Shown here in pieces: positions 23,498 to 31,938 of a stretch of DNA of 36,548 bases. Below the pieces are notes generated by a model. The model was not told the DNA's origin and did not search any database. It saw nothing but the letters and a program-made list of their open reading frames with translations. The first letter of the stretch is position 1. Each line of letters opens with the position of its first letter. The stretch is from Rhodoferax sp. (GTDB lineage Bacteria > Pseudomonadota > Gammaproteobacteria > Burkholderiales > Burkholderiaceae_C), in assembly GCF_023701345.1 (NCBI RefSeq), contig NZ_JAMPXE010000017.1, forward strand, positions 1-36,548. Direction: 5' to 3'. The translations under genes were made by a program, and so were the position numbers.

Positions 23498-23875
23498 CAG
23501 AAAACTGCTGTGGCGGGCGAGCCCCTGCACGGTCAGGTCCGCAGCGATAGCGGGCTTACAAAAACTCACATTGCCCGCCCTATACCAGCCGGTGGTAATT
23601 GTTAGTTTTGGAGCCCAGAGTCCATCCAATGAGGTCGTTCACAAACGTATTACCTTCGTTCTCATACAATTGCGGCATGGAAAATGCCACGGGATTACGG
23701 CTACTTACAGCCATCACCGCTTCTGTGGGGAAATCAACATTGCTCTGCATTCGTTTGATCACCCCACCATAGCTGGCCGCGCCACTCTAGCGCCTCCGCT
23801 TCTGTGACATCCTGGCGTTCCTGATCCATAAGGACATTCAAGCGGAATCTCCATTTCTCTCATGGGAGTATCGCC
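23498..23875. other. Intergenic spacer of unclear origin
   Basis: 378 bases without a convincing gene. On the minus strand, 23580-23762 can encode about 60 residues starting at GTG and containing AFSMPQLYENEGNTF and DLIGWTLGSKTNNYH. A second minus-strand frame just upstream gives about 31 residues (starting MDQERQDVTEAEALEWRG). Together these might be remnants of one frameshifted gene, but I recognise no family. On the + strand there is a short ribosome site before the next ATG. Confidence 0.3.
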
Positions 23876-24241
23876 ATGTCTTTGAATCTTTCCCATTTCC
23901 GTCAACGGCTGATTGATGAGCTCGAAAAAGGCGAGATGTCCCTGCAGGCTTCACATAGCGCTGGTGAAACGGTGATCCTCGACCAATCCAGCGTCGGTCG
24001 ATTGTCCCGGATGGACGCTTTGCAACAGCAGGCCATGGCCTACGAATTGACAGAGCGTCTGCAGTTGTCAAAACGAAAGGCGCACGCTGCACTGAATCGG
24101 CTCGATGCCGGTACTTATGGCCTTTGCTGTCAGTGCGAAGAAGAAATCGACCCCAGTCGCTTGGAGCACGATCCAGCTGCGGTGTTTTGCCACAGTTGCA
24201 TGGAAGAGCGTGATACAGCGCACCACGGGCACGGGCACTGA
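23876..24241 (+). CDS. Short DksA/TraR-type C4 zinc-finger protein
   Basis: A 121-residue protein whose C-terminal part holds a four-cysteine zinc finger of the DksA/TraR type: GLCCQCEEEI and, 17-20 residues later, VFCHSCMEER. A helical N-terminal part (about residues 1-75) precedes it, and the C terminus is His-rich (HHGHGH). Full DksA has a longer coiled coil of about 150 residues in total, so this is one of the small paralogues that may bind RNA polymerase through the secondary channel. The acidic tip DxxxD of DksA is not evident, so ppGpp-type activity is uncertain. ATGGGAGTATCGCC before the start contains a GGAG ribosome site. Confidence 0.85.
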   Translation: MSLNLSHFRQRLIDELEKGEMSLQASHSAGETVILDQSSVGRLSRMDALQQQAMAYELTERLQLSKRKAHAALNRLDAGTYGLCCQCEEEIDPSRLEHDPAAVFCHSCMEERDTAHHGHGH

Positions 24242-24353
24242 AACTGGGCGTTCACAAAACTGGGCAAGTGTATTGGTCGGACCTAATTTATGAACGTTTG
24301 AAATATGGACTTATCGAACGCGCCCTCGTCATGGTGCCGAAAGCCTCCGGCAG

Positions 24354-24851
24354 TCATTCACTTGTTACGACATGTCGAGCGATTGGGTGATCTTTGAACT
24401 GAGCAATAACCTCTCTGAAAAGATCCCTCTGTTCTGGAATTTTGATCAGTTCCTCAACAGCAACCGCCGATGCCCAGCAAAACGCCTGAATCTCTTCGGC
24501 CTGAAGTTGGACAACAGATGCAGAATCCACGATTACGAAAAAGACCTTTGCAATTTGTCCGTCGTAGTCAAGCGCGCGTACTTTTAATCTGGTCTGAGAA
24601 TCGGAACCAGTGTCGAGCGGATGACGTATGCAACTCCACTAGCGCACAAATGCCAGTCTCTTCGAATATTTCTCGAACAATTGCTTGCTCATCGCTCTCA
24701 CCACCTTCGACACCACCGCCTACAAAAGTCCAAGTGTCCGACTTATACCGTGGGGCTGAATCAAGAGAAACTCGCCTTTGTCGGTCGCGATGATTGCACG
24801 AACTTTTTTGCGGAGTTAGTTGCCGTCAACATATTCAAATTTTGAAGTCAT
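24354..24851 (-). pseudogene. NUDIX hydrolase pseudogene with a nonsense codon and two frameshifts
   Basis: Reading the minus strand from the ATG at 24851 gives MTSKFEYVDGN, then an in-frame TAA (24816-24818), then VRAIIATDKGEFLLIQ. A frameshift at the C-run opposite 24752-24755 moves the frame to PRYKSDTWTFVGGG. A perfect Nudix box follows (about 24649-24717): G-x5-E-x7-REIFEETGI. A second frameshift near 24581-24600 leads to VRALDYDGQIAKVFFVIVD, then IQAFCWASAVAEEL and a TGA at 24354-24356. Joined, the pieces give about 165 residues, a normal NUDIX length, so this was an intact gene. Three lesions make a single sequencing error an unlikely explanation. The substrate is unknown; the family hydrolyses nucleoside diphosphate derivatives. 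The short + strand frames here are antisense shadows. Confidence 0.85.
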
Positions 24852-24852
24852 T

Positions 24853-24874
24853 CTGTAACGTCCATTTGTTACAG
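24853..24874. repeat. 7-bp perfect palindrome between the NUDIX pseudogene and the stress-protein gene
   Basis: CTGTAAC and GTTACAG flank an 8-base loop. The site is immediately upstream of the NUDIX pseudogene start and about 24 bases downstream of the usp stop. It could be an operator of the former gene or a weak terminator; there is no T-tract. Confidence 0.35.
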
Positions 24875-24897
24875 GTCCAATACATTCTCAGATGAAA

Positions 24898-25782
24898 TCA
24901 GCGCAGCAACATTGTCGGAACACGGGCAGATCTCAGCAATTCGGTGGTCTTGCTACCAGCAAAAAGACTTTTGATGGGCGAATGGGTATAGGCACCCATG
25001 ACCAGCATATCAATGTGTTGTTCTTGAATGGCGCGGGCAATGGCGGTCTCAGGATCGCCCGTAATCAGAAAGGCATTGGATTCCATGCCAGCAGACACCA
25101 GCGCAGATTGCGCGGCATCAAGCTGTTTCGAGGCATCCCTATCCTCAGCTTTTCCGACCATAAAGAGGTAGCACGGTATACCCTTGAACAAGGGGCTGGA
25201 GGCGACCATCTCAACGGCGTGCCTGGCAGCTGACCCACCATCAAAGGCGATCAGCACGCGTTGCGGCGCTGTGAAATTGTTCGTGACCGTCAGAATCGGC
25301 CGATCCATCGCGCGTACGACCCGTTCCACGTGTCTGCCCAGGTCGCGAGATGTGGTCTGAGCCGATTCGCCGCGCCGCCCCATCACCACCAAACGCACAT
25401 CGGCCTGTTGCTCAGTCAGAGTTTCAACCAGTTCACCATGTCGCTGACGCATATCAGGTGACTGCACCCCAGTGGCCTGGGCACGTTCTCGCAATCGATT
25501 TAGAAAAATTCGCCCCTGCTCCCGAGCGGCTTTTGCTTCAATGGCGTCGTCTTCAGCCAGTTTGCCGAGTAAGGTCTCCTGCGCATTGATGCCAATTGAG
25601 CCGCTGTGGTCGTTGCTGTGTACTGCTGACGACTCCTTGTCAATGACGTGCAGAAGTTCCAATGGCGCCTGCATTCTGATGGATGCCCAGGCTGCAGCAT
25701 CCGTCACATGGTCAGCATAGGGCGACTGATCCACACAGGCCAACACTTTGCGATCTCCGAATTTTTTTGTATCTGTATTCAT
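24898..25782 (-). CDS. Tandem universal stress protein (two UspA domains)
   Basis: A 294-residue protein with two Usp domains, about residues 10-150 and 160-294. Domain 1 runs from KVLACVDQSPYADHV to LVVMGRRGESAQTTSRDLG. Domain 2 runs from RVLIAFDGGSAARHAV to MLVMGAYTHSPIKSLFAGSKTTELL, with the G-rich ATP-binding loop better kept in domain 2. Usp proteins bind ATP and are induced by stress; the precise role is unknown. A GAGAGGA ribosome site precedes the ATG. The gene starts 16 bases after the SulP stop, so the two probably form an operon, and joint control of transport is an inference. Confidence 0.9.
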   Translation of the reverse strand: MNTDTKKFGDRKVLACVDQSPYADHVTDAAAWASIRMQAPLELLHVIDKESSAVHSNDHSGSIGINAQETLLGKLAEDDAIEAKAAREQGRIFLNRLRERAQATGVQSPDMRQRHGELVETLTEQQADVRLVVMGRRGESAQTTSRDLGRHVERVVRAMDRPILTVTNNFTAPQRVLIAFDGGSAARHAVEMVASSPLFKGIPCYLFMVGKAEDRDASKQLDAAQSALVSAGMESNAFLITGDPETAIARAIQEQHIDMLVMGAYTHSPIKSLFAGSKTTELLRSARVPTMLLR

Positions 25783-25798
25783 GTTGTGTCCTCTCTTA

Positions 25799-27274
25799 TC
25801 AATGACCCATCAGAAGGTCTTCAGCGCCATCTTTGTCGTGTACGGCAAATTTGTCCACCATGGTGGTGCTGGCTGCGTTTAAGCCAACTACCTCAACGTC
25901 AGTACCTTCGCGGCGAAATTTCAGGACCACCTTGTCCAAGGCGCTAACCGCTGTGATGTCCCAAAAATGCGCGCGGCTGACATCAATGCGCACCTTGTCG
26001 ATCACTTCCTTGTAATCAAATGAATTCGTAAAGCGGTCGCCTGTGGCGAAGAACACCTGTCCGAGCACTTCGTAGGTACGGGTTCGACCTTCCTCTTCTG
26101 CGCGCGACTTGACACGAAGGATTTGACCCACCTTGTGCGCAAAGAAGAAGCCCGAGAGCAAAACGCCCACCAGTACACCCTTCGCCAGATCGTGAGTGGC
26201 CACGGTCACGACAACAGTGGCAATCATCACCAAACTGGAACTCTTAGGGTGGTCGCGCAGATTCTTGATTGAACTCCAACTGAATGTTCCGATGGATACC
26301 ATGATCATCACTGCGACCAAAGCAGCCATCGGAATTTTCGCGACCCAGTCACCCAGGAATACCACCATCAGCAACAGGAAGACACCGGCTGCAAGTGTGG
26401 ACAAGCGTCCGCGTCCACCTGATTTGATATTGATGATGGACTGGCCGATCATTGCGCAGCCCGCCATGCCACCGATAAAGCCTGAAGCGATGTTGGCTAA
26501 ACCTTGGCCCACGCACTCACGATTTTTATCACTCTTGGTGTCGGTCAGGTCGTCCACGATGGTGGCCGTCATCAGTGATTCAAGCAGCCCAACAACCATC
26601 AGCGTCACAGAGTAAGGAAAGATAATTTTCAGAGTCTCGAAGTTCAAGGGAATATCGGGAATCAGGAACATCGGCAGACTGTCAGGTAACTTGCCCATGT
26701 CACCGACTGTCCGAATGTCTAAGCCCAGTGACATCGCGACAATGGTCAGTACCACGATGGTCACCAGCGGTGATGGCACCGCTTTGGTGATGTAAGGGAA
26801 GCCGTAGATGATTGCCAAGCCACCGGCAGTCATGGCATAGACGTGCCAACTGACGTTGGTCAGTTCAGGCAACTGCGCCAGGAAGATCAGGATAGCCAGT
26901 GCATTGACGAACCCCGTGACAACTGAACGCGAAATAAACCGCATGTGTGCACCAAGTCGTACCCATCCTGCAATTATCTGCAGGACGCCAGTGAGCACAG
27001 TAGCGGCAAGCAGGTATTGCAGACCGTGGTCCTTAACCAGGGTCACCATCAACAAGGCCATGGCACCCGTTGCCGCTGAAATCATGCCGGAGCGTCCTCC
27101 AACAAAGGCGGTGACCACGGCGATACAGAAGGACGCATACAACCCCACTTTGGGATCAACGCCCGCAATAATGGAAAAGGCAATGGCTTCGGGAATTAAG
27201 GCGAGCGCGACTACGATGCCAGCAAGTAGATCGTTTCGGACATTGGAAAACCAGTCCTGTTTCAGAGAATTCAT
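25799..27274 (-). CDS. SulP family inorganic anion transporter
   Basis: A 491-residue inner-membrane protein with about 10-14 hydrophobic segments. The SulP signature lies near the N terminus ([24 protein letters not shown] and VGLYASF), with [13 protein letters not shown] after it. A C-terminal STAS domain (about residues 400-480) contains [21 protein letters not shown]. Members carry sulfate, bicarbonate or other anions; the substrate is not readable here. The open frame runs up to 27397, but the ATG at 27274 ([19 protein letters not shown]) is the natural start before the first helix. It forms a unit with the tandem Usp gene downstream. Confidence 0.92.
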
Positions 27275-27760
27275 AAGCAATAGGTAATGCGGCAAGTCAG
27301 CAAACGTGACCAGCCTGTTTGAGCAATGGAAGAAAGCACTAAGCCTGCACCGGAGAAGTGAGGTTGAAGAACCACATGGGTGATGTGCAAGACGCACATG
27401 GCATCACGCCAGCCCGAACTGAGAAATCGAGTCGGGTCGCCCTAATTAACTGTGGGGGCGAATGGCGTGGGGTGCTGAGGGGTTACAACGGAATATGCCT
27501 TGCTGTGAGACTTGATTCTAACCGGAGGATCACGATTTGCAGATTTGGTCAAAGTTTTCCGACTGCGTACAGCCCTTTACGTCGGCTTTATTGCCTTGGA
27601 ATTCGTACCTGCTTTGTTTCCACCGCGTGACCGAGCAAGTGTCACAAGGCGGGTTGCAGTGCTTGGCAGGTCAATAAATTGGCATTCAGCAATAACTACG
27701 GTTCACACTGACCGACGTTGAACTGGACAACCTGAAAGATGACTGTCGTGGCTGTCGGCA
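27275..27760. other. Spacer between the SulP gene and the RIT element
   Basis: 486 bases with no gene I can support. Short + strand open frames (27358-27630 and 27512-27721) show no recognisable protein. It must carry the promoter of the SulP-Usp unit. An 11-base word at 27737-27747 (AGATGACTGTC) recurs in the same orientation at the far end of the RIT element (31158-31168). Confidence 0.5.
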
Positions 27761-27795
27761 ATGGGTCTTTATGCAGAGCGCACAGTTATGAATAG
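27761..27795 (+). repeat. Candidate left terminal inverted repeat of the RIT element
   Basis: Begins ATGGGTCTTTATGCAGA and ends TTATGAATAG. It aligns with the reverse complement of 31152-31184 with small gaps. Its last ten bases are also the left arm of an inverted repeat with 27853-27862. Confidence 0.55.
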
Positions 27796-27862
27796 ATCGG
27801 CACCGGCAAGCATATTGGCCGTTGGCACAGCGACCAGAAACACACCCGCCAGCTATTCATAA
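27786..27862. repeat. 10-bp inverted repeat flanking the tail of the RIT element
   Basis: TTATGAATAG (27786-27795) and CTATTCATAA (27853-27862) are perfect complements 57 bases apart. The right arm abuts the ritC stop codon. It could be a pair of recombinase-binding sites within the end region. Confidence 0.5.
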
Positions 27863-28879
27863 TTACAGTGTCTTCAAGAAGTCCAGCAGCGAGTCGGATG
27901 CCCGATACCGTTGGATTTTTTCTTCAGGCTCCTGTAGCCGAGCCAGCGCACGTTCTTTCATTGCCAGGTCCGCTTCCACGTAATGATGCGTGGTCGTCGG
28001 ACTCTCGTGACCCAGCCACAGCGCAATCACACTGATATCGACCCCCGACTGAAGCAGGTTCATGGCCGTCGTGTGTCGAATCGTATGGGGAGATATATGG
28101 CGATCGGCTAACTCAACATTGACTTTGGCGGCGGCTGCCACTGCCAATGCCAGCCGTTTCGCCACGTTATCGCGCGTCATGGCCTCACCATCGCGGTTGG
28201 GCAGCAGCGCAGAGGTAGGCAGTAGCTGTGGGTTCAGCCTCAACCAAGCGCGAATCTCTTTCACCGTCGAGCGCCATAACGGCACCGACCGCTGTTTGCG
28301 GCCCTTGCCTCGCAGATGGACGCAGGCTACGCCATCAAGCACCACATCGGCCACACGCACGCCAATGATCTCGGAAACACGGGCGCCAGTGTTGTAAAGC
28401 ATTCCGAGCAGCAAGTGATCGCGCTGACTGATCCAACTGATACCGGGCGCTCCGATCACTGCCAACATCTCATCGCGCGACAGGAAACCCAGCATGGGCC
28501 GCTCAAAGCGTTTCATGGGCACGCCCAGGGCGCTCTCAATGACATGCAGCGATGCCACGTCGCGATGGGAAGCAAACTTCAGAAACGAGCGCAGAGCCGC
28601 CAGGCGAGCATTGCGGCTACGCACCGCGTTGTGGCGATCTTGCTCCAGATGGTCCAGAAAGGCCCGAATCACTTCTGGCGTGATGTCCGCCAGCTTCATT
28701 GATGCGGGAGACTTGCCGCAATGCTTGGTGGTGAAGTCCAGAAACAACATGAACGTGTCCCGGTACGCAGCGACGGTGCAGGGGCTCAGCGCTCTTTGCT
28801 GGGTGATGTGCTCTGCAAAGAACGCCTGTATCAGCGCGGGAAATGACGGTGGCGCGGACGGTGCTTTTTTGTTATTCAT
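27863..28879 (-). CDS. ritC: Tyrosine recombinase, third gene of the RIT trio
   Basis: A 338-residue phage-integrase-type recombinase. An N-terminal SAM-like core-binding domain (about residues 15-110) precedes the catalytic domain. The catalytic residues are all visible: Arg in YNTGARVSEI, Lys in GKGRKQRSVPL, His-x-x-Arg in PHTIRHTTAM, His in WLGHESPTTT and the nucleophile Tyr in HHYVEAD. The frame is open to 29041, but the ATG at 28879 (MNNKKAPSAPP) overlaps the ritB stop by 8 bases, matching the tight coupling of RIT genes. It closes the element. The exact role of each of the three recombinases in RIT movement is not established. Confidence 0.88.
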   Translation of the reverse strand: MNNKKAPSAPPSFPALIQAFFAEHITQQRALSPCTVAAYRDTFMLFLDFTTKHCGKSPASMKLADITPEVIRAFLDHLEQDRHNAVRSRNARLAALRSFLKFASHRDVASLHVIESALGVPMKRFERPMLGFLSRDEMLAVIGAPGISWISQRDHLLLGMLYNTGARVSEIIGVRVADVVLDGVACVHLRGKGRKQRSVPLWRSTVKEIRAWLRLNPQLLPTSALLPNRDGEAMTRDNVAKRLALAVAAAAKVNVELADRHISPHTIRHTTAMNLLQSGVDISVIALWLGHESPTTTHHYVEADLAMKERALARLQEPEEKIQRYRASDSLLDFLKTL

Positions 28880-29846
28880 CACCAGCCTCCGCTGCTTGTG
28901 CGTAGTGTTCAAACTTGGCACCAGCCAGCGCCACGAGTTCCGGCACGCCGGTGAGATACCAGTAGGTTTTGGAAATCTTGGCGTGCCCCAGATAGGTTGA
29001 CAGTGACAGCATGGCCTCGTCGACATTGATGCCTTGCGCATGCCAGAGCATCACCCGGCGCACCGCAAAGGTGTGCCTCAGATCATGGATACGCGGCTCG
29101 CCGTGACAGCCGCGATCAATCCAGCCTAATTTGTCGCTCAGCTCACGAAAGACCCGATGCACCTGACGGTCGCCCAAGGGCTGCCCCAGCAATCGGCCTC
29201 GTGTGCCGACGAAAAAGTGGGTTTCTGTGGTGGTCGGCACTTGGCGACTGCGCAACTCACGATAACGAGCCAGTGCCAATACGGTGCTTGGGTGCAGGGG
29301 CAGCCATCGCGACTTTTTGCATTTGCTCAGACGAACGGTTAGCGCACCGTCTTTGAGGTCAACATCTGAGTCAAGCAGTGCCAACGCCTCCGACACACGC
29401 AGTCCTGCCGAGGCAATGAGTCCGAACAAGGTCTCAAAGGTGGCAGATCGCAGGCTGCCCTTGGGCTCCATGTCTCGCGCAGCACCCATCAACGCAACGA
29501 TTTCGTCTTCACGGTAAATATGCGGGGCGACACGGCCTGGCACCGGGCCAAATGCCGACTCATCGAGCACTTCTGTCAGTGGCTCAAACTGACATAGCCA
29601 GCGGGCAAAGGGGCGCACCACCTCAATTCGCCGCGCGCCAGTGGCTGGCAAATGGCTTTGCTTCTTGTCCAGACGAGCCCACTCAGTCATCAGTTCGGCA
29701 GTCAACGCCCTTTCGTGACCAGAACTGGCAGCAAAGCTGGCAAGACTTGTCAGAGCGTATTCCATGCTGCGCAATTCAAAACCCAGTTGTCGGCGTTCGG
29801 CGAGATAGTCATCGACTTTGGCTTGGAGATAAGTACGTGTGTTCAT
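28872..29846 (-). CDS. ritB: Tyrosine recombinase, second gene of the RIT trio
   Basis: A 324-residue tyrosine recombinase. The catalytic set is Arg in SAGLRVSEAL, Lys in the KCKKSRWLPL strand, His-x-x-Arg in RIHDLRHTFAV, His in YLGHAKISKT and Tyr in YWYLTG. The open frame runs to 29990 inside ritA, but the ATG at 29846 (MNTRTYLQAKVDDYLAERR) overlaps the ritA stop as ATGA and gives a normal core-binding domain. It is translationally coupled to ritA upstream and ritC downstream. No catalytic residue is missing, so it should be competent. Confidence 0.88.
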   Translation of the reverse strand: MNTRTYLQAKVDDYLAERRQLGFELRSMEYALTSLASFAASSGHERALTAELMTEWARLDKKQSHLPATGARRIEVVRPFARWLCQFEPLTEVLDESAFGPVPGRVAPHIYREDEIVALMGAARDMEPKGSLRSATFETLFGLIASAGLRVSEALALLDSDVDLKDGALTVRLSKCKKSRWLPLHPSTVLALARYRELRSRQVPTTTETHFFVGTRGRLLGQPLGDRQVHRVFRELSDKLGWIDRGCHGEPRIHDLRHTFAVRRVMLWHAQGINVDEAMLSLSTYLGHAKISKTYWYLTGVPELVALAGAKFEHYAQAAEAGDE

Positions 29847-31096
29847 GCCGCACTCCCAGGCCAAGGCAAGGCCACAGCCACCAGTTTTGAGTTGTCCAGT
29901 TTGGCGTAAATCATTGAGGTGTTGAGGTGGCGATGACGCAGTACATCGGCCACCTCCTTGAGTGAACTGCCCTGATTGACCAGTTGGCACGCCAGTGTGT
30001 GACGTAGCGCATGGGTGCGCCCGTGCTTCAGACCAATGCGACGGAAAGCATCACGGATGACGCGGTGGATGGCATCTGGTCCGATGGGTTGATCGTGCGG
30101 TGCCAGCACGCGGACGAAGACGGCTTGATTCGTGGTCTTTGGCCGCTCAAAGCGGACATAGTCGGCCAGCGCCTGGCCAGTGACGGCTGGCAGCGGCAAG
30201 GTGTCTTGGCGCAGTGCCTTGGTGCGTTTGATCGTGACGGTGCCGTTGCGCCAGTCAATATCGGTCAATTGAAGTTTGGCTATTTCGCCTCTGCGCAGTC
30301 CCAGATCCAAAGCACAGCGGACGATGGCGTAGCCACGCTTTTGTGACGGCAAGGATGCGTTGAACGAGGCAAGCAAGCGAGCAACCTCGTCGGGCTTGAG
30401 GGCCTGGGGCAGTGATGCCAAATTCCAGTGGGCAGGCGAAGAAATGACACCAATCAGTCCGTAAACCTGATCGCCGCAGGTCGCTCTGTATCGAAAGTAG
30501 GCACGCAGCGCCGAAGCCAGCATGATGGCGTTGGATGTGGTGCCGACCTGATCGAGTCTTGCCGCGATAAATTTGCGCACATCATCTGGCTTCAGTTCGG
30601 CAATCACAACCGGGCGCCCAGCAAAGGCATACAACAACAATTGGCGCACCGTGGATAGCGCACTTTGACGCGTGCCCTCACTCAAGCCGCGTGATTTGTT
30701 CATATGGTCGTCGTATCGGCGCAATTCATCAGCTATTTCCCCAGTGGGTGCTGGGGGTGCATGAATCACACCCTGTTCGAGCAGAACGGCCAGCATGTGA
30801 CCGAGCGCAGCACGCAAAGTACCGTGGTCTCGCCTGACAGGTCTAGGGCAATCGCAGCACGGCAGATGCTCATCGAGAAATTGCTCGACCGTGCGCTCGT
30901 CAAGCTGTTCGACCGCCAGACCACATTGCGTCATCCATCGGGCAAAGTGGGCTAGCCCAGCGACGCAGCCTGCCGAAGTGGTGGCGGCATAACGACCAAG
31001 CCTGAAATGCGCGCAATACGACTCAAGATGCGGTGCAAGCGCGCTATTGAGTAGCCACGCCTTGGCCGTCGGGTGAAGTGACTCGATGATGTCCAT
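29843..31096 (-). CDS. ritA: Tyrosine recombinase, first gene of the RIT trio
   Basis: The largest of the trio, 417 residues. A longer N-terminal region (about 1-115) precedes the core-binding and catalytic domains. Catalytic residues are Arg in LGLRRGEIAKL, Lys in KRTKALRQDTLPL, His-x-x-Arg in THALRHTLACQL, His in LRHRHLNTSM and Tyr in IYAKLD. The ATG at 31096 is preceded by CTGGAG. This ribosome site and the start lie in one arm of a perfect 10-bp hairpin, so translation of the whole trio, which is chained by overlaps, may be controlled at this point. Confidence 0.88.
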   Translation of the reverse strand: MDIIESLHPTAKAWLLNSALAPHLESYCAHFRLGRYAATTSAGCVAGLAHFARWMTQCGLAVEQLDERTVEQFLDEHLPCCDCPRPVRRDHGTLRAALGHMLAVLLEQGVIHAPPAPTGEIADELRRYDDHMNKSRGLSEGTRQSALSTVRQLLLYAFAGRPVVIAELKPDDVRKFIAARLDQVGTTSNAIMLASALRAYFRYRATCGDQVYGLIGVISSPAHWNLASLPQALKPDEVARLLASFNASLPSQKRGYAIVRCALDLGLRRGEIAKLQLTDIDWRNGTVTIKRTKALRQDTLPLPAVTGQALADYVRFERPKTTNQAVFVRVLAPHDQPIGPDAIHRVIRDAFRRIGLKHGRTHALRHTLACQLVNQGSSLKEVADVLRHRHLNTSMIYAKLDNSKLVAVALPWPGSAA

Positions 31097-31123
31097 GATG
31101 GTCTCCAGTAGTTGAGACCATCA
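31096..31123 (-). promoter_or_regulatory. Hairpin covering the ribosome site and start of ritA
   Basis: On the minus strand TGATGGTCTC and GAGACCATCA form a perfect 10-bp stem around an 8-base loop (AACTACTG). The second arm contains most of the GGAGA ribosome site and the first base of the ATG. As RNA this would block initiation; as DNA it could be a dimeric recombinase-binding site. Confidence 0.6.
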
Positions 31124-31151
31124 GTTCAAACCTTCTCGAAAATTATGTCTA

Positions 31152-31184
31152 CTACCGAGATGACTGTCTGCCCATAAAGCCCAT
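31152..31184 (-). repeat. Candidate right terminal inverted repeat of the RIT element
   Basis: The reverse complement begins ATGGGCTTTATGGGCAGA and continues with CAGTCATCTCGGTAG. It aligns with the left end at 27761-27795. It includes the 11-base word also present outside the left end at 27737-27747. Confidence 0.55.
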
Positions 31185-31238
31185 GTTCAGAAGGCTTGCG
31201 GGCGAATCACCTCAAATCCTATTCCAAGGGTCTTTTTC

Positions 31239-31255
31239 AGCCTTCGGGCTATTTT
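31239..31255. terminator. Weak hairpin beyond the urease operon
   Basis: AGCC-TTCG-GGCT (31239-31250) is followed on the + strand by ATTTT and preceded by TTTTTC, so it could act in either direction. The stem is only 4 bp, with a UUCG tetraloop. It lies between the RIT right end and the ureG stop. Confidence 0.3.
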
Positions 31256-31278
31256 GCAGCCGGCTGCGCGGGTCTCAC

Positions 31279-31938
31279 TTATGCGCTTTTCAGCATGCCT
31301 TTCTTCTCAATGAACGCCACCACCTGCGCCAGGCCATCCAGTGTCTTCAGGTTGGTCATGACAAAGGGCTTGAGCCCCTTGGGTGTGCTGCGCATGCGCG
31401 TCGTGTCGGCGTGCATCACGTCCAAGTTGGCACCCACATAAGGCGCCAAGTCGGTCTTGTTGATGACGAACAAATCGCTTTTGGTGATGCCGGGGCCGCC
31501 CTTGCGCGGGATTTTTTCGCCAGCGGCCACGTCGATCACATAAATCGTCAGGTCGGAAAGTTCGGGGCTGAAGGTGGCGGCCAGGTTGTCACCGCCGCTC
31601 TCGATGAACACAATGTCGGCCTCGGGAAAATCCACCAGCATGCGGTCGATGGCTTCCAGGTTGATCGATGCGTCTTCGCGGATGGCGGTGTGCGGGCAAC
31701 CGCCCGTTTCCACGCCCATGATGCGCTCGGCCGGCAGGGCGCCGCTGACGGTGAGCAGGCGCTGGTCTTCCTTGGTGTAGATGTCGTTGGTGATGGCCAC
31801 CAGGTCGTACTGCTCGCGCATGGCCTTGCACAGCATTTCCAGCAGCGTGGTTTTGCCGGAACCCACCGGCCCGCCAATGCCCACGCGCAAAGGGGGCAGG
31901 GGTTTGGTGCGGTTCTTGATGTGGTGGAGTGGGTTCAT
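31279..31938 (-). CDS. ureG: Urease accessory GTPase UreG
   Basis: The 219-residue SIMIBI-class GTPase delivers nickel to apo-urease in complex with UreF and UreD/H, using GTP hydrolysis. The P-loop is GPVGSGKTT at residues 23-31, the nickel-binding CPH is at residues 81-83 within [14 protein letters not shown], Walker B is [10 protein letters not shown], and the guanine-specificity motif is NKTDLA. It is the last gene of the operon, 8 bases after ureF. The RIT element begins 94 bases beyond its stop. Confidence 0.97.

Follow-up and report, generated by a model that had tools for sequence, protein, structure and literature searches.

The window analysed here, a stretch of 36,548 bp, is the entire contig NZ_JAMPXE010000017.1 (C166) of a Rhodoferax sp. 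draft assembly (GCF_023701345.1; 3.42 Mb, 224 contigs, completeness 90.57%) and carries a recombinase-in-trio (RIT) element, which consists of three tyrosine recombinase genes on the minus strand. ritA (29843–31096) encodes a protein of 417 residues, in which two successive four-helix groups resembling core-binding domains are followed by the catalytic domain. The start of ritB (28872–29846; 324 residues) shares 4 bp (ATGA) with the stop of ritA, and ritC (27863–28879), whose 338-residue product is predicted to have an additional helix at its C-terminus, shares 8 bp with ritB. Each protein matches Pfam Phage_integrase; the top NCBIfam match is XerC in all three cases, with XerC and XerD scores far below the curated cut-offs. 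Alignments of 32 RitA, 5 RitB, and 35 RitC sequences reveal a complete catalytic set in RitA (R268, K293, H362, R365, H388, and Y397), RitB (R150, K175, H254, R257, H288, and Y297), and RitC (R167, K192, H265, R268, H291, and Y300). These six columns, which we take to be the catalytic ones by analogy with XerD and related recombinases, are either invariant or conserved to at least 90% in the alignments; across 70 trios conservation reaches at least 95% for every residue other than the first RitA histidine and the second RitB histidine. An earlier note on this DNA had described the three overlapping minus-strand genes, the full residue sets, and the lack of cargo, and all three descriptions hold: the region 27769–31227 contains no minus-strand open reading frame (ORF) of at least 60 codons outside the three genes, and one 76-codon ORF lies inside ritA. 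Differences between the window genes and those of the related loci L042, L043, and L054 fall mainly at third codon positions, indicating that the three genes were under selection during most of their separation from these relatives.

The window trio is a genuine RIT element, in agreement with the earlier note, as judged by the order of the genes and their overlaps, the relationship of the proteins, their predicted domains, and one true end. The reference for membership was two RIT sets of pHG1, a plasmid for which RITs are described in passages of PMC3414803 and PMC2864759. Every protein of these sets, two each of A, B, and C, has the same-letter window protein as its best match, with scores against the two sets of 169/194 bits (A), 160/157 bits (B), and 174/247 bits (C) and off-letter scores of at most 48 bits; family assignment is thus by pairwise match scores and not tree-based. 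In the AlphaFold2 model of RitA (mean predicted local distance difference test score, pLDDT, 85), helices 21–107 and 120–206 form the two four-helix groups, as judged from the model without fold-library comparison. The RitC model ends in a short additional helix (329–337) with low local confidence (~62–66), and in this tail L335 and L338 are invariant and F334 is nearly so among the 35 sequences. A RitA with two core-binding domains and a RitC with an extra C-terminal helix are features given in a passage of PMC8138268, and the window overlaps of 4 and 8 bp fit the 4 to 8 bp stated for RIT genes in a passage of PMC3414803. The window element shares gene order, 4–8 bp overlaps, a length of ~3.5 kb, and three distinct recombinase families with the RITs of Cupriavidus metallidurans CH34 and pHG1, but its proteins are 31–44% identical to those of pHG1 and, unlike the pHG1 elements, its A-side end is decayed. 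The CH34 RIT is inserted in an IS66 transposase gene according to a passage of PMC2864759, a kind of insertion also seen among the relatives analysed here, whereas the window site is an intergenic GGGTCT.

The C-side end is intact. Its terminal repeat, aligned with relatives, spans 27769–27795 on the plus strand and comprises arm TTATGCAGAG, 7 bp, and arm TTATGAATAG; an internal inverted arm, CTATTCATAA, lies at the ritC stop codon (27853–27862, plus strand) and is present in the aligned relatives. A 27-bp terminal-repeat model, trained on 34 repeats from 17 relatives with paired ends, has its window-wide best match at 27769 on the plus strand (28.2 bits; the ten lowest training repeats score 25.0–32.0). 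Of the inverted-repeat ends proposed in the earlier note, the low-coordinate one is therefore real, but it starts at 27769 and not at 27761; bases 27761–27768 are two more target bases and the target hexamer GGGTCT (27763–27768, plus strand), which adjoins the end. Sixteen short repeat matches from the same genome and genus, all intergenic, begin at window positions 27768–27771, stopping at the element start. G077, a genome of the same genus, aligns with the flank beyond sulP as far as 27750 at 86% identity; when the last 18 bases before the boundary are compared without gaps, 10 agree, including all of the final 8 (ATGGGTCT), and the sequences diverge afterwards. GGGTCT is found at the same place in this unoccupied G077 site and in contigs C138 and C140 of the genome itself. 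Together, the repeat matches and the unoccupied site set the C-side boundary at 27768/27769.

The RitA-side end is no longer recognisable. A conserved internal arm, TTATGTCTAC (GTAGACATAA on the coding strand), was found upstream of ritA at 31143–31152 (plus strand) by alignment of the upstream regions, and the decayed end follows at 31153–31227 (minus strand). The 27-bp model scores at most −4.1 anywhere in 31080–31290, and the window lacks a terminal repeat in the range of 138 to 166 bp upstream of ritA, where the repeat starts in the 21 closest relatives among those listed (L035 to L071). An automatic inverted-repeat search of the window gave nothing convincing among the 25 longest of 41 pairs. 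The earlier note had placed the repeat of this end near 31184. When the C-side end is aligned, with gaps, to the 143 bp of the A-side region, the score is 18, compared with 36–66 for the end pairs of 37 relatives, and 18 or more is reached by 6.4% of 3000 random sequences and by 35 of 1002 other window segments; this candidate is thus not clearly distinguishable from chance, and neither the pairwise score nor the terminal-repeat model supports it as the decayed end. Weak single arms at 31168–31177 (minus strand) and 31219–31228 (plus strand) compare with 0.3 expected by chance per 150 bp under a single-arm model that is imperfect, its second arm being shifted by one base (the 27-bp model is unaffected).

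A second GGGTCT at 31228–31233 (plus strand) forms a 6-bp direct repeat with 27763–27768 and is the likely A-side boundary hexamer; homology of the ureG flank to the same-genus genome G003 begins at 31227, beside it. The likeliest A-side boundary is 31227/31228, which we regard as only moderately secure because a third GGGTCT lies at 31270. The comparison with a related genome lacking the insertion, suggested in the earlier note, produced an unoccupied site for the C side in G077; the A side is placed by the ureG-flank homology to G003. As best delimited, the element spans 27769–31227 (minus strand); if the boundary is at 31227, the unit is 3459 bp long, within the 3353–3521 bp range of 37 relatives.

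The view that the copy is recent and may be functional is not supported. A DNA search of the 3.42-Mb draft returned a single full match, the window itself, and partial matches of 61 bp and 90 bp, the former terminating exactly at the hexamer adjoining the element; no identical copy was found. The closest full trio among the matches listed, L042, encodes proteins 66–79% identical to those of the window, and G106 contains a RitC fragment with 88% identity across 65 residues. RitB relatives at least 52% identical are present in five of 35 same-genus genomes besides its own (G005, G008, G017, G018, and G026); a scan of viral contigs with RitB gave five pattern matches and no true relative. The window copy shows no sign of recent arrival, and it is probably immobile in cis because the recognisable RitA-side end has been lost. 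Contrary to what had been proposed, it is a poor subject for defining ends; related genomes that contain more than one RIT copy serve this purpose far better.

These relatives were collected by scanning genome contigs with a RitB alignment. The best 80 of 251 confirmed loci, the window, and four same-genus loci make up 85 sources (two, L037 and L067, are the same contig, and neither is included in the palindrome count below). Paired terminal repeats were found by script in 37 of the 85, the window being among the 48 without, and several identical copies in Burkholderia sp. OK233 and Paraglaciecola sp. MB-3u-78 provided exact ends. The general plan of the relatives is a hexamer, an arm (TTATGCACAG), 7 bp, a second arm, the genes, and the mirror image at the opposite end. 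Outside the repeat, on one side only, lies a 20-bp palindrome of two arms with another hexamer. In a recount of 45 end pairs (37 found by script, seven by hand, and one further OK233 copy), in which a palindrome was called at 13 or more matching positions of 20, it is on exactly one side in 33: 17 times beside RitA and 16 times beside RitC, or 17 and 14 once the OK233 copies L081, L082, and L084, which have the same IS66 context, are merged. Another five pairs are too close to a contig end for a call. Three targets are occupied in both orientations, namely IS66 in Burkholderia sp. OK233 (L081/L083), an ArdC-like gene (L116/L117), and a Paraglaciecola site (L052/L055), and in all three the palindrome stays on the same half of the target. 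Exact copies of an element's own palindrome number five in OK233 and three in Paraglaciecola, all beside RIT genes, and one in each of ten further RIT-bearing genomes; the truncated sixth OK233 copy (L080) has a near copy. A looser pattern also matched palindromes different from these, two in OK233 and one in Paraglaciecola; the control with the pattern reversed matched once in three of six genomes. At L034 (positions 1–250, reversed) 111 bp separate two palindromes, the first preceded by a C-side RIT end and the second followed by the A-side end, as in tandem copies or mixed orientations. A different palindrome is present twice in Burkholderia sp. OK233 (L265 and L269); it is bordered by GGGTCG on one side, and no RIT gene lies within 1.5 kb of it.

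The hexamers of the 33 one-sided elements follow a pattern of their own. Outer, inner, and distal hexamers are identical in 17; in the remaining 16, the outer equals the distal in five, the outer equals the inner in five, the inner equals the distal in two, and all are different in four. Among these 16 the hexamer base adjacent to the arm never varies, the next base varies in two, and the differences are mostly in the four arm-distant positions. Strand exchange across 6 bp in one or other of two cores would be expected to produce each of the unequal classes. The fifth complete OK233 copy has the element's hexamer on one side and a different hexamer on the other.

We joined the flanks at 32 sites by removing the element and the palindrome and retaining one hexamer. 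A frame across the junction is assignable in 10 of these, and the expected families were found for the six checked against Pfam. The joined frames run through conserved motifs of IS66 transposases (DNNVIER/DIRP at L081, L082, L083, and L084; RPITLQR/KNALF at L076; RPLAL/TRKNALF at L077), an ArdC-like protein (HELA/HATK, L117), another RitC (L073), a serine recombinase (L095), and an rve transposase (L107). Sites in the window's clade appear mostly intergenic. At L073, the flanks of two ends paired by script join as one RitC-like protein, interrupted at the conserved motif of the catalytic lysine; here a RIT lies within ritC of another RIT-like element.

One-sided palindromes, hexamers, and open joined frames suggest a circle with two mirror-image core sites, either of which could integrate. 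The recombinases would pair 10-bp arms (consensus TTATGCACAG) on either side of a 6-bp exchange region. The junction of the excised circle would be a symmetric double core, R3' - N6 - R1R2' palindrome - N6 - R3, and either core would recombine with a target of the form Ta - N6 - Tb. Gene orientation would then be free, but the palindrome would always end up next to Tb; one hexamer would lie on each outside, and a third inside. For the window copy, we favour a history in which a RIT was inserted by tyrosine-recombinase site-specific recombination, through the double-core mechanism deduced from its relatives, at the hexamer GGGTCT of the intergenic site between the sulP/usp module and ureG, and in which the recognisable RitA-side end was lost afterwards while the genes remained open. 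More tentatively, RITs in general could move as circles with a palindromic double core, integrate in random orientation, and leave 20-bp scars by excision through the inner core, with the recombinases dividing the arms among themselves. If so, scars scattered in the window's genus would be products of such excision, and the recombinases would serve different arms (outer, inner, palindrome or target).

Several points weigh against this picture. The mechanism is deduced by comparing sequences and not from an observed circle or transposition event. Six of the 45 end pairs lack a palindrome despite sufficient flank (L048, L050, L065, L068, L070, and L092), and in L086 both sides carry one; 22 of the 32 joined sites have no frame or an uninformative one, and, a hexamer being two codons, joined frames cannot separate one retained hexamer from two. 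In the window itself the palindrome is not recognisable, the A-side boundary is supported by one hexamer and homology to a single genome, and, with a draft assembly, a misjoin at the element is possible. Palindromes that stand alone in the genus also raise the question whether the palindrome could be a resident target instead of part of the element. L086, which is located at a contig end, has identical outside sequence and a palindrome flanking both sides, and may be an assembly fold-back or reflect both orientations in the population.

If the palindrome were a small resident landing element alongside which RITs insert, its side relative to the genes would be set only by RIT orientation. We scanned 89 same-genus genomes for the palindrome and hexamer pattern, allowing one mismatch, and found 28 sites in 19 genomes, while the reversed control never matched; among 19 distinct sites inspected, the palindrome stands without a neighbouring terminal arm at 11, as a resident element would predict, and with one at seven, and one site is unclear. 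Yet the exact own-sequence palindromes are all beside RIT genes in OK233 and Paraglaciecola and single in the ten other genomes, and the IS66 and ArdC-like frames are continuous without palindrome and element, whereas 20 or 26 extra bases would shift the frame, so we consider a resident palindrome unlikely. Inversion after insertion has slightly better prospects, although we doubt it: with equal hexamers the inner and distal cores lie inverted, the element could invert in place and flip the palindrome side, and a double-core circle would be unneeded. Mixed orientations in one assembly could also give the same outside sequence on both sides of L086. Palindromes do, however, occur on either side even in elements whose inner and distal hexamers differ (L054, L095, L107, L116, and L117), which speaks against inversion in place but is not decisive.

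Solo palindromes with flanking hexamers and no RIT end are found at L195, L197, L200–L204, L206, L209, L210, and L213, the hexamers being in some cases direct, in some inverted, and in some unlike. They may be scars or landing sites. An unoccupied allele was sought for two of them; in the search one flank matched and the other did not. At three loci a GGGTCT site carries a RIT end but the stretch examined contains no RIT genes: L181 (G091:C18), L183 (G091:C74), and L185 (G078:C1), the last of which retains one end, a short middle part, and the palindrome.

The insertion history favoured for the window copy has two competitors of its own. The trio could be a relic or have been domesticated for a function other than transposition, a possibility that we take seriously without preferring it: the A-side end is unrecognisable, the copy is single, and the genes are constrained relative to relatives. 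That constraint, however, was measured against the lineages of L042, L043, and L054 and is silent on the role of the genes in this strain, and the occurrence of RitB relatives in five of the 35 same-genus genomes indicates that the trio is not fixed in the genus. Very improbable is an assembly artefact in which the junction of sulP module, RIT, and ureG was misjoined through a repeated element. The draft comprises 224 contigs, and ureG and sulP are separate in G003 and G083, but the element is single-copy and well within the contig, both flanks terminate at GGGTCT, as expected of an insertion, and in G003, G064, and G089 ureG is found next to the hisD block. That adjacency indicates that the outer gene order of the window is ordinary, with an extra module inserted.

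The picture outlined above for the relatives extends what passages of the literature say about RITs. A 28–29 bp inverted repeat and an overlapping palindrome were already published in 2012 (PMC3414803, in part), where it is also stated that RIT ends do not fit the usual core and arm sites; a passage of PMC10214605 gives the repeats as 34 bp, and its 2023 table marks target specificity, empty site, and movement of RITs as not tested. Further searches of the literature collection used here found no additional paper on RIT mobility; in the passage of PMC12306157 retrieved, RIT is used in another sense. The one-sided palindrome, the hexamer pattern, and the double-core idea are absent from the RIT passages covered (the main paper on RIT organisation, Ricker 2013, lies outside this coverage), and we do not claim priority for them. 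Several tyrosine recombinases acting together are also a feature of Tn554, SE, and GInt, of which Tn554 and SE have a 6-bp footprint according to a passage of PMC10214605. These elements carry a TnpC/Srap/GinD-type gene, whereas the ORF list of the window element, which was not complemented by a TnpC profile search, contains no minus-strand ORF of at least 60 codons outside the three genes; a one-sided palindrome is unmentioned for them in the same part of PMC10214605. XerD (1a0p) is the top solved-structure match of the RitA profile by sequence, but the NCBIfam XerC/XerD scores set the window proteins apart from Xer recombinases. The window copy itself is ordinary, and the model from its relatives is the part worth following up: their comparison defines boundaries and targets, points to an exchange region of 6 bp, and predicts the circle junction, and how the three recombinases cooperate thereby becomes a question that can be tested by PCR.

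Beyond the element, an EPSP-synthase-type/hisD block and ureG share a contig in G003, G064, and G089, where they are 3.9 kb, 98 bp, and 2.1 kb apart, respectively. In the window, the gap between hisD and ureG holds an extra segment (~23546–27768) followed by the RIT. This segment carries a universal-stress-type gene and a SulP transporter and matches contig C135 of G077 in two pieces; it is absent from this place in G064 and in G003, which has different DNA between hisD and ureG. The segment looks like an inserted module ending in GGGTCT. We considered the sulP-ureG neighbourhood as a rearrangement made by the RIT and dropped this idea, as the hisD block and ureG are adjacent in several relatives and the sulP/usp module is an extra insert. 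A repeated intergenic block ending in GGGTCT (window 27708–27768; L152–L155 in C166, C138, and C140 of the genome itself; L237 and L238) resembles a cassette end. In six copies read of the block that ends in ATGGGTCT, the sequence that comes next differs from copy to copy; one of these right sides recurs in G078.

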